Assembly (NCBI RefSeq): GCF_000695095.2
Contig: NZ_CP011454.1
Coordinates: 1,922,001 to 1,986,000 of the forward strand
Source: Gemmatimonas phototrophica
Lineage (GTDB): Bacteria; Gemmatimonadota; Gemmatimonadetes; Gemmatimonadales; Gemmatimonadaceae
Reading direction: 5' to 3'
Length of the DNA stretch: 64,000 bases
In this document: positions 7,276 to 20,006 of the stretch, one piece after another
Layout of the letters: the number at the start of each line of letters is the position of its first letter
Numbering within the stretch: position 1 is the stretch's first letter
The notes under the pieces: model-generated
Database searches by the model: none
What the model saw: only the letters and a program-made list of their open reading frames with translations
What the model was told of the DNA's origin: nothing
Program-made: the position numbers and the translations under genes

Positions 7276-9604
7276 GCTCATTCATGCCGTCGCCTGGTGG
7301 TTGGCCGGGCTCTTTGTCGCCGAGTGGCGGCATACGCCTGCGCCGTGGCTGCTGCTGGCGGGAGCGTTGGCGGTGGTGGTGCGGGCGCGGCGCGTGGAGC
7401 CGCTGCTGGCCATTGCCGGCATGGTGGTGGCGACGAGTGCGCAGGTGGAGCTCACTCGGTGTCAGGGGCTGTTGCATGCGTCGCTGCAACGGGGAGACAC
7501 CGTCTGGATCGCGTTGGCGGAAACACACCCGTCGCGTGGTCGCCGGGCTGCTCAGGGGCGAGGGGTCGTGCACGAACGTGTACACGCCCCGCGTTGCCGT
7601 GTCCCTGCCACGGTGCAGTGGAGTCCCCTCGACAGCCAACCGCTGCCGGCGGCGGGGAGCACCGCAGGCATTGCCGCTATGTCGCTGCGGACCAACGGTG
7701 CGCTGCGGCTCAGCATGGCGAGAACCACGCGTGCCACTGGTGTTCGAAATCCGTGGCGGGCCTGGCAGGCCAGACTTGGTCGCACGATTGACGAGGCGTT
7801 CCGGCAACGTGCCCCCCTGGTTCGCGCACTGCTGATTGCGGACCAACGCGGTATCGCGCCTGAACTTCGCGACCTGTATGCCGATGCCGGGTTGGTGCAT
7901 CTGCTCTCTGTGAGCGGAATGCATGTGGCTATCATCGCCGGCGCCTTGTTGACGCTCGGCGGAGTACTGCGGCTTCCACGCGCCGCCGTGGAGCCGGCTG
8001 CGATGCTGCTGGTCGGAGGCTACGTGCTGCTGCTGGGATGTCCGGCTCCCGCCGTGCGCAGCGCCGTCATGCTCGGAGTCATGTCGCTCACCGCCCGCCT
8101 GCAGCGCCCCGTGCATGAATGGACCGCGCTGGCCCTCGGCGCTGTCATCCCCACCCTCGATCCGCGCGTGGTGCACGACCTCGGGTGGCAGTTGAGTGTG
8201 AGCGGCATGGCCGCCCTGGTCGCTGCGCGTGCCCTCAAGCGGCGCTGGCGACATCAGGCCAGACAGGGGCCATTGTCCCAGCCGTCGCTGACGGGACGGC
8301 TGACGAACGGCTGGCGATGGGCGCTCGCGCGCCAGGGGATTGGCGGTTGGATGGTTTCCGAAGTGCTCACCGGGGTCATCGCTACGCTCGTCACGGTACC
8401 GGTGATTGCGTGGACTTTTGGCCGAATCAGTCTCATCGCTCCACTGTCCAACCTGGCAGCAGGGCCGGTGGTGGGTGTCATGCAGCCCGCCTTGTTCCTC
8501 GCGTTACTCTGGGCGCAACTGGCCCCGCCGGCGCTGGCAAAGTGGTTACCGGATGCGACGCAGCCACTCATGGCGCTCCTCGATCTGATCGCGTCGTACT
8601 CGGCGGCAGTGCCCGGCGCCGTCATGCCCGTGGCGCCAACCCTGTGGACGGCCGTGGGAGCGGGGGGAGCAGCGGCCCTGGTGGTACGGGGCACGGCTGA
8701 TCGGCGAAGCACCCCATGGTACGTGGCGGCTGCCGGGCTGCTGGCCGTCACTCTGTGGGGACCCGTGGTTGCGCGCGGGAGCGGGCAATTGGAACTCCAT
8801 GTACTTGATGTGGGGCAGGGCGATGCCGTTGCCCTCCGCACCCCGAAGGGGCGCTGGGTGCTCGTTGATGCCGGTCCGCGGTGGAACGGTGGTGATGCCG
8901 GACGACGCACGGTCGTGCCGTATGTGCGGCGACTCGGTGGCGAGGTGGCACTCTTTGTCATGACTCATCCGCACGACGATCACGTTGGCGGTGCGGCGTC
9001 GGTGGTGCGGGCGCTCGAGGTACCGCGCTGGTGGGAGCCCGCCTTCGTGGCGGCCAGCCCGGGCTACCGCGCGGCGCTTCAGGCGCTGCAGCAGCAGCGC
9101 AGTGCCTGGGAACGGGTGCGTCCCGGGGCCGAATTCACACTCGACGGGGTCACGCTCACTGTGCTGGCGCCCGACTCGGCGTGGACGGCCGCGCAATCTG
9201 ATGCCAATGAATCATCGGTGGTACTCCGTGTCGCCTATGGACGCCACAGCTTCCTGCTCACCGGAGATGCGGAACGGGAGGAAGAGGCATGGATGCTGGC
9301 GCACGTGGATCATGCGCTGCTGCAGGCCGATGTACTGAAAGTCGGACATCACGGCAGCCGGACCAGCTCATCCGCGCCATTCCTCGCCGTGGTAGCTCCG
9401 CGGCTGGCCATTGCCTCGTTGGGGGCCGGTAACCGGTACGGGCACCCCGCCACGGAAACAGTGGCGGCGCTGCTCCAGCAGGGGGTTCCTCTGTTGCGTA
9501 CCGATCACGAAGGGACGGTGGTGGTACGCAGCAACGGTGAGCGGCTGGCCGTGCAGGCGGGCGCTGATCACTGGATCATTCCCCCCGCTGCGCGTGTTTG
9601 GTGA
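7268..9604 (+). CDS. comEC: DNA internalization-related competence protein ComEC/Rec2
   Basis: This roughly 778-residue polytopic inner-membrane protein is the channel that takes in single-stranded DNA during natural transformation. It has hydrophobic N-terminal segments, a central competence domain ([34 protein letters not shown]) and further membrane helices. A C-terminal metallo-beta-lactamase-like domain follows, with VGQGDA, VDAG and HPHDDH at residues 567-572. The start is uncertain: ATG 7268 gives the usual MPLL... opening, ATG 7247 adds seven residues, and neither has a clear ribosome-binding site. No other competence gene is in the window. Confidence 0.92.
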
Positions 9605-17999: not shown

Positions 18000-18172
18000 C
18001 ACTGGAATTAGTCCACGAGCAACGCGTCGGCAATCGCCAACCGGACCCTCGATCATCTTACGAAGCGGACCGCTCGTGGAATACCATTTTACCGTGCCGT
18101 GCTGCACACTTCATGCGAGCGCCTGTTCGATGCGTCGTTCCCGAGCTGAACCCCGCCCTTTGCCCCACGCCC

Positions 18173-19627
18173 ATGTCGTCGGAAATCCGTCCTGAACACC
18201 CGGCTCCTTCGTGCGCCGGATGCGCTCGTGTCGACCGGCGCCAGTTTCTTGCGTCGGCATCGGTCCTTTCGTTGGGCGCGCTGGCCACGGCGGCCTGCGG
18301 TGACGGGGTGTTCAGCGGTCCGGAAACGGTGCCGGCGTTTCCTTCCACTCCGTTTACACTCGACCCCCGCACCGTCACCGCGTTGCAGCAGGTGGGAGGG
18401 CGCACCGTGGTGCAGAACGGCACCACATCGCCGGTGCTGGTGGAGCGGGTGGGGGCGTCGCAATACCGGGCGCTCTCGCTGGCGTGCCCGCATCGGGGGA
18501 CGATCGTGAATGTGCAAGCCGACGGGTTTCTCTGCCCCAACCATGGCGCCCGCTTCGCGGCCGACGGTACGTGGCTGGGTGGGCAGGAAACGGTGGACCT
18601 CGCGCCTGTTGCCGTACGGGTCAACCCCGATGGCACCCTCAGCATTGGGGGAGCCCCACCACCACCGGCCATCGGGTTGGGAGCCACCTCGGCGGTCTTT
18701 GTGACCACGACGACCGGAAACAACCCGGCCGGCCAGACGATAGCGATTTCCAATGCTGGCGGCGGGTCGCTGGGAGGGCTGCAGGTTGGGTTGGCCTACG
18801 CCCCCAACCAACGCAGCGGCTGGCTGTCGGTGCAACTCAATCAGGCCACCGCGCCGGCCCTGCTGACCCTGGGGGCCAGCAAAGGCACACTCCCGGCCGG
18901 CATCTACAACGCCACCGTTACGGTCAATGCCACTGGCGCGACCAACGGGGCGCAGACCATTGCCGTCTCCTTTCTGGTCCAGGACCCCACAACGCCGGCG
19001 TCGCTCCAGCTGTCGGCCACAGCGCTCGCGTTCTCGGCTCCACTGGGCACCGCCCCGGCCGCCCAAACCGTCCAGTGCAGCAATGCCGGCGGAGGCAACG
19101 TCACGGGGCTGGCCGCGCAGGTGGCCTACGGCGCCGGTGCCACAGGCTGGCTGAGCGTGACGCTCAACCAGACCACGGCCCCGGCCATCCTCACCGTACG
19201 CCCCACCAGCACCTCTCTGTCACCCGGCACATATACCGCTACGGTGACCATTTCGGCCACCGGGCTCGCGCCGCGTACCCTCGCCATTGCGCTGACCGTG
19301 ACGCCTGGCGGTCTGGTGGTGAACCTGGCCGCCTGGCCCGCCCTGGCCAATGTGGGGGGCGTTGCCGGCAGCGTTGGGAACGTGAACGGCGGACCGGTGG
19401 CGGTCGTACGTACTGGCACCAGTAGCTTCAGCGCGTTCTCCATGGTGTGCCCGCATGCCGGCACGACCATCAACGTGGTGAATGGCGCCAGCTTCCGCTG
19501 CCCCAACCACGGGGCCCTGTTCAATGCCAGCGGCGACAATCTGCCAAACTCGCCGCAACGCACCGACGACCTCACCCGCCTCACCGTGAGCTACACCCCA
19601 GGCGCGTCCACGCTGATCGTGACCTGA
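18173..19627 (+). CDS. Tat-exported lipoprotein with two Rieske [2Fe-2S] domains
   Basis: The 484-residue protein starts with a twin-arginine signal (D-R22-R23-Q-F-L) ending in the lipobox-like TAAC (Cys42), so a folded cofactor protein is exported and lipid-anchored. Rieske domain 1 has C105-P-H107 and C121-P-N-H124. Two BACON-like beta-sandwich repeats follow (about residues 170-275 and 280-385), sharing GWLSV-LNQ-TAPA-LT and AGIYNATVTV/PGTYTATVTI. Rieske domain 2 has C426-P-H428 and C443-P-N-H446. It probably acts as an electron carrier; the partner is unknown. ATG 18173 is used rather than 18113 so that the Tat signal lies near the N-terminus. Confidence 0.85.
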   Translation: MSSEIRPEHPAPSCAGCARVDRRQFLASASVLSLGALATAACGDGVFSGPETVPAFPSTPFTLDPRTVTALQQVGGRTVVQNGTTSPVLVERVGASQYRALSLACPHRGTIVNVQADGFLCPNHGARFAADGTWLGGQETVDLAPVAVRVNPDGTLSIGGAPPPPAIGLGATSAVFVTTTTGNNPAGQTIAISNAGGGSLGGLQVGLAYAPNQRSGWLSVQLNQATAPALLTLGASKGTLPAGIYNATVTVNATGATNGAQTIAVSFLVQDPTTPASLQLSATALAFSAPLGTAPAAQTVQCSNAGGGNVTGLAAQVAYGAGATGWLSVTLNQTTAPAILTVRPTSTSLSPGTYTATVTISATGLAPRTLAIALTVTPGGLVVNLAAWPALANVGGVAGSVGNVNGGPVAVVRTGTSSFSAFSMVCPHAGTTINVVNGASFRCPNHGALFNASGDNLPNSPQRTDDLTRLTVSYTPGASTLIVT

Positions 19628-19745: not shown

Positions 19746-20006
19746 ATGCCAACTTACGAGTTTCGCACGCCCGACGGCTCCATCATCGAGCGGATCTTCA
19801 AGATCAGCGAAGTCCCTGAATCCGTCGAGTTGCCCGACGGCAGTGTGGCCACACGCATCATCTCCGGTGGTGCCGGCCTGCTGTTCAAGGGCTCCGGGTT
19901 CTACATCACCGATTACGGCAAGGACGGCAAAAAGGACCAGCGTCCAGCCGCCCCCGCCTCCAGTGATTCCAAGCCTGCGGCGCCTCCGGCGCCCAAGGCC
20001 GAGTGA
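19746..20006 (+). CDS. FmdB-family-like small protein lacking the zinc ribbon
   Basis: This 86-residue protein opens with MPTYEFRT and contains GLLFKGSGFYITDYGKD, both hallmarks of the FmdB regulatory family, and ends in an alanine/proline/lysine-rich tail. The family normally carries CxxC pairs forming a zinc ribbon; there is no cysteine at all here. Function is unknown even for intact relatives. It follows a good promoter, and argS starts 67 bp downstream. Confidence 0.75.
   Translation: MPTYEFRTPDGSIIERIFKISEVPESVELPDGSVATRIISGGAGLLFKGSGFYITDYGKDGKKDQRPAAPASSDSKPAAPPAPKAE

Follow-up and report, generated by a model that had tools for sequence, protein, structure and literature searches.

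One gene of Gemmatimonas phototrophica encodes a protein with two Rieske heads held apart by two Ig-like repeats, and this two-headed gene is fixed beside argS across the genus. Both heads are under purifying selection. Rieske clusters are mostly known singly, one per chain, from the bc complexes, oxygenases and small ferredoxins. The window, which is the whole 64,000-nucleotide stretch of DNA analysed, belongs to a genome consisting of a single 4.7 Mb contig. An alternative in-frame ATG lies at 18113, 60 bases upstream of the start at 18173; the orthologue alignment favours a start at about 18173. The gene and its parts are as follows.

18173..19627, + strand: gene of the two-headed, probable Rieske lipoprotein, 484 amino acids plus stop (translation, Pfam, 17-row alignment, genus survey)
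18173..18295, + strand: putative signal peptide, residues 1-41, in which C14-A-G-C17 precedes the twin arginine R22-R23 (sequence and alignment)
18296..18298, + strand: Cys42, candidate lipid-anchored cysteine (A-A-C-G-D-G); C42, G43, D44 and G45 are nearly invariant
18350..18652, + strand: N-terminal Rieske domain, residues 60-160 (29.2 bits to PF00355; fold match 9rk4, Z 12.0)
18485..18544, + strand: first set of cluster ligands, C105, H107, C121 and H124 (invariant in 17 rows)
18665..18991, + strand: Ig-like repeat 1, residues 165-273 (repeat alignment, repeat profile, fold match)
18998..19309, + strand: Ig-like repeat 2, residues 276-379 (repeat alignment, repeat profile, fold match)
19313..19624, + strand: C-terminal Rieske domain, residues 381-484 (35.4 bits to PF00355; pLDDT 94.6; 5cxm, Z 12.4)
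19448..19510, + strand: second set of cluster ligands, C426, H428, C443 and H446 (invariant in 17 rows)

Across the 17 rows of the orthologue alignment the twin arginine (R22/R23) and C42 hardly vary. The lipobox of the window protein is non-canonical at the -3 position, where it has T (T-A-A-C). Read from these motifs alone, the protein is probably a Tat-exported lipoprotein. As a separate observation, a CxxC, CxC or CxxxC motif stands just before the twin arginine in 61/67 Rieske Tat-like starts of the fetched loci vs 2/10 other Tat-like starts, and those two may be Rieske genes too. The CxxC of the window protein lies at 18212-18223, and the motif recurs in L002, L025, L030, L043-L049 and L066-L087.

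PF00355 matches the protein in two stretches with 58 bits in total (cut-off 20.3). In a search of its own genome the N and C heads each exceeded that cut-off (29.2 and 35.4 bits, respectively), and among nine Rieske places this was the only frame with two Rieske domains. The two domains are 43% identical to each other. The original prediction had named two complete ligand sets at the positions listed above; both were found in the translation and in 17/17 rows of the alignment, where all eight ligands are invariant. Invariant columns number 25/101 in the N head, 40/104 in the C head, and 13/109 and 14/104 in the repeats. In 7/7 orthologue pairs dN/dS is 0-0.16 for both Rieske domains, and the highest value of any segment is 0.34, in repeat 2 of one pair; these are rough figures, as several dS values exceed 1. 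Conservation of the ligands speaks against failure of either domain to bind a cluster; each head would hold a [2Fe-2S] cluster.

Structure prediction with AlphaFold2, using the full chain and 17 orthologues, gave a pLDDT of 78 and a pTM of 0.46, so that the domains are modelled and their mutual orientation is not fixed. Folded alone, the C head reached a predicted pLDDT of 94.6. Its best solved match is 5cxm (PetC3; Z 12.4, rmsd 2.2, 95 residues), and the other structural matches listed for it are Rieske proteins or Rieske-containing enzymes or complexes. The best VIA-align row for the full model covers the N head (9rk4; Z 12.0, rmsd 2.5, 104 residues, model range 58-199), and the Foldseek search with the whole model was dominated by Ig and cadherin repeats. 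Each head is predicted to adopt a Rieske fold.

Alignment of the two repeats gave identity in 46/104 columns (44%) and a score of 201, against a maximum of 79 for shuffled sequences, pointing to repeats that are clearly homologous. They had been described as near-identical, which a 44% identity does not bear out. The description as BACON-like is weak as well. The window protein had no match to either BACON model (PF13004, PF19190) at E≤1 and so stays below the Pfam cut-off, and BACON_2 was matched by 4/17 orthologues, with a best E of 0.0014. Residues 163-379 have many matches among Ig and E-set beta-sandwich folds, a fold too common to assign BACON.

Stalk length varies. A chain from genome G218 (L065 1-2811 (+)) has six Ig-like repeats between its heads instead of two, and the repeat profile finds 2-9 copies in other fetched Gemmatimonadota proteins, with or without a terminal haem-c-like motif. 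An Ig-repeat gene lies directly downstream of a double-Rieske gene in L069 6753-9119 (-) and L070 929-4465 (-) (G120, G118), and both products have a C-terminal CX4CH. The Ig-repeat proteins of G184 and G068 (L071, L028) end in a CXXCH region. All four share the repeat family of the window protein and carry the terminal CX4CH or CXXCH where it has a Rieske domain. Pfam cytochrome matches were sub-threshold for the CX4CH pair (E 0.017 and 0.081), and none was obtained for the two CXXCH-ending proteins; the haem-c head of these Ig-repeat proteins is a putative one, named for its motif.

The two-headed form is present in one frame in 23/30 genus genomes, and in 16/17 of those at least 90% complete. 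The seven genomes without it are G078 and six at 57-86% completeness. In 13/13 genus loci that were fetched, including a decayed one, the gene adjoins argS; on that same side lie purM and the gene next to argS, which by eye is kinase-like. In the window the neighbours are an M1 peptidase gene on one side and a short ORF followed by argS on the other; no tRNA and no promoter-like site was found near the gene. The short ORF (19746-20006 (+), 86 amino acids) has a weak match to Zn_ribbon_8 (E 0.045), and a similar ORF is present in G078. G078, a near-complete genome, has a broken remnant of the C head at the argS place (L079 ~8642-8938 (-)), in which one ligand His is substituted and a stop codon interrupts the frame. 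Because the two-headed gene has been lost there except for this remnant, the protein is dispensable in G078. A contig scan, which reaches close relatives only, returned 16 loci: the titles of 15 name Gemmatimonadaceae, Gemmatimonadetes or Gemmatimonas, and that of the remaining one says only 'bacterium'. A plasmid search gave one match, a single-Rieske protein from Phycisphaera. The architecture is common within the genus, and we found no description of a two-headed or tandem Rieske protein, or of a Rieske-BACON architecture, in the open-access literature. The matches, as far as their available text goes, concerned dimeric complex III, oxygenase systems, arsenic, anammox subunits and other subjects.

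Among known Rieske proteins the nearest is PetC3 of Synechocystis (5cxm), a plasma-membrane Rieske protein, which is the best solved match of the C head and also the best PDB sequence match, in that case to the N head. PetC3 differs in having one head and no Ig-like stalk, and the cysteines of boxes I and II occur in its matched stretch but are absent from both window heads. The Rieske subunits of cytochrome bc1 and b6f (1rie, 2zt9 and Kuenenia kuste4569, 9rk4) share the fold and ligand pattern of the window heads. Unlike them, the window protein has two heads, no disulphide cysteines, no Ser/Tyr and no cytochrome b neighbour; the disulphide cysteines of boxes I and II are found in 0/19 longN and 0/18 longC rows. 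A bc-complex subunit was rejected, because the window protein missed every bc1/b6f NCBIfam cut-off (NF045928, 38.9 bits with a cut-off of 250; TIGR01416, 27.1 bits with a cut-off of 97.4) and the same genome encodes another Rieske protein, the gene after which looks by eye like a cytochrome b gene (L053). A Rieske-type protein already known from Gemmatimonas, HucE of the group 2a hydrogenase (PMC7784904), was considered as well.

Closer in architecture are spacer-less double-Rieske lipoproteins of other Gemmatimonadota. Like the window protein they begin with a Tat-type N terminus and carry two Rieske domains per chain; they differ in lacking the repeats, the six that were aligned being 270-305 amino acids long. 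Such chains occur in 8/295 searched Gemmatimonadota genomes, at nine places, and cover nearly the whole of the A2 model, which was itself built from six of the chains that the A2 search then recovered. Their genes (in L066-L070, L073, L074 and L090) mostly belong to a cluster whose other members encode two small membrane proteins, TM1 and TM2, and a second Rieske protein, termed Rieske A. This four-gene cluster recurs across the phylum. The window protein's own genome has a copy at L051 5193-7365 (G000:C1:2548192-2550364), which consists of the two small membrane proteins, Rieske A and a lipoprotein termed Rieske B. Among the 31 non-argS loci fetched that carry a Rieske gene other than A, TM1 is present in 24, TM2 in 19 and Rieske A in 20, counts that describe a sample chosen for Rieske or repeat relatives and not de-duplicated (L042 and L090 are apparently the same contig). 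None of the three genes is present in any of the 13 argS loci, and TM2 is present in 29/30 genus genomes, elsewhere than the argS locus. Both TM1 and TM2 are small and of membrane type, and histidines are conserved across the four aligned examples of each. Their resemblance to DUF4079, cytochrome b561, DUF2214 and DUF6644 is weak, with one TM2 example passing the DUF6644 cut-off, and they may bind haem b.

Box II separates these Rieske proteins. Ser and Tyr, the pair typical of high-potential clusters, are both present in 22/22 Rieske A rows and in none of the others (longN 0/19, longC 0/18, shortN 0/9, shortC 0/9). In yeast, as given in the available text of PMC12954380, mutation of the Ser lowers the Rieske potential by 130 mV and that of the Tyr by 65 mV. 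Potentials are not safely read from box II residues, because the same text also reports a Rieske protein that lacks the Tyr yet has a high potential, +335 mV (PMC12954380).

A tree of 107 Rieske domains and 102 columns, from which two further domains had been removed by an HMM filter, placed the 19 longN rows in one clade and the 18 longC rows in another, each with starred support and not drawn as sisters. As each forms one clade, the divergence of the two heads predates the radiation of the genus. Most deep forks of this tree are unsettled with 102 columns. On a rapidly built tree each of the labels N and C has to change four times, and AU tests found a single clade compatible with the data for N (p 0.275) and for C (p 0.116), so that double chains may have arisen once or several times. 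Because the argS loci lack the cluster genes, what ties the window protein to the redox cluster is domain kinship alone.

We propose that the protein is a Tat-exported, lipid-anchored, lower-potential envelope carrier in which two independent Rieske heads, one near and one far, serve different partners, and we see about an even chance that this is correct. The near head would follow the lipid anchor, and the far head would sit at the end of the Ig-like stalk, two repeats long here and six in one relative. Both heads would be of the lower-potential kind; they have neither the Ser and Tyr of box II nor the disulphide cysteines found in respiratory Rieske proteins. Descent would most likely have been from the low-potential Rieske B lipoprotein of the small Gemmatimonadota redox cluster, and a domain-doubled, stalk-bearing version would then have become fixed beside argS in Gemmatimonas. 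We infer a separate docking partner for each head, electrons being collected or delivered at two heights above the membrane. An electron run along the stalk is not expected.

The original prediction offered two roles for such a molecule, passing electrons over a distance and bridging two partners in the envelope. Two intact, separately conserved heads held apart by Ig-like repeats, with a probable lipid anchor, are supported; a relay through the stalk is not. By ordinary domain size, two Ig-like domains would place the clusters several nanometres apart, and the limit for electron tunnelling is roughly 1.4 nm. Transfer within the molecule along the stalk is therefore unlikely, short of a chain folded back on itself or a packing of molecules against one another. 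Bridging of two putative partners is compatible with the data and is the preferred reading, though the gene stands alone between the M1 peptidase gene and argS.

Folding back of the stalk, or head-to-tail packing of chains, would bring the clusters within tunnelling distance and make the protein a two-electron carrier or a short wire. The two homologous heads, both constrained, fit such an arrangement, and the spacer-less relatives indicate that the wider group can accommodate closely set heads. We nevertheless regard it as quite unlikely, since the six-repeat stalk of G218 suggests that spacing is kept rather than contact, and the model, with its low pTM, does not fix how the heads are arranged. 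An equally improbable reading is that one head is redox-active and the other a structural or partner-binding copy. The C head does have more invariant columns than the N head, and in the N head of some orthologues the residue after the last His is altered (N-H-D/E/A/L instead of N-H-G). The ligands are intact in these too, all four of each head being invariant in every row, and dN/dS is low in both heads; neither the ligands nor dN/dS support a dead head.

The repeats may also do something other than space the heads. BACON-type repeats are often associated with glycan binding, and other Gemmatimonadota proteins, with or without a haem-c-like end, carry several copies of this repeat family, which would suit repeats that bind the cell wall or a polysaccharide. 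The protein would then act as an accessory, donating electrons to a periplasmic or surface enzyme encoded elsewhere, or it would belong to a surface structure. This is unlikely, although it deserves some weight: the window protein reaches no Pfam cut-off for a binding module, and the repeats are its least conserved part, as expected of a spacer. An artefact of chance motifs was also considered and rejected, because each head exceeds the Pfam cut-off, the ligands are invariant and the homology of the repeats lies far above shuffled sequences.

With two heads serving separate partners as the preferred reading, the protein can be set in the wider phylum, whose genus Gemmatimonas includes cultured strains. 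A general Gemmatimonadota design of a redox head on an Ig stalk is conceivable, though we hold it to be a speculative idea that is probably wrong. Lipid-anchored stalks of exchangeable length, bearing Rieske or haem-c heads, would reach across the periplasm from a compact membrane module, made up of Rieske A (high potential), Rieske B (low potential) and a pair of small haem-b-type proteins, and would offer electrons a route to the outer membrane that needs no multihaem cytochromes. A selected protein, present across a genus, in which a stalk of variable length keeps two Rieske clusters apart would be an unusual placement of envelope electron carriers, and it points to an uncharacterised cluster of small membrane and Rieske proteins that is spread through a common soil phylum.
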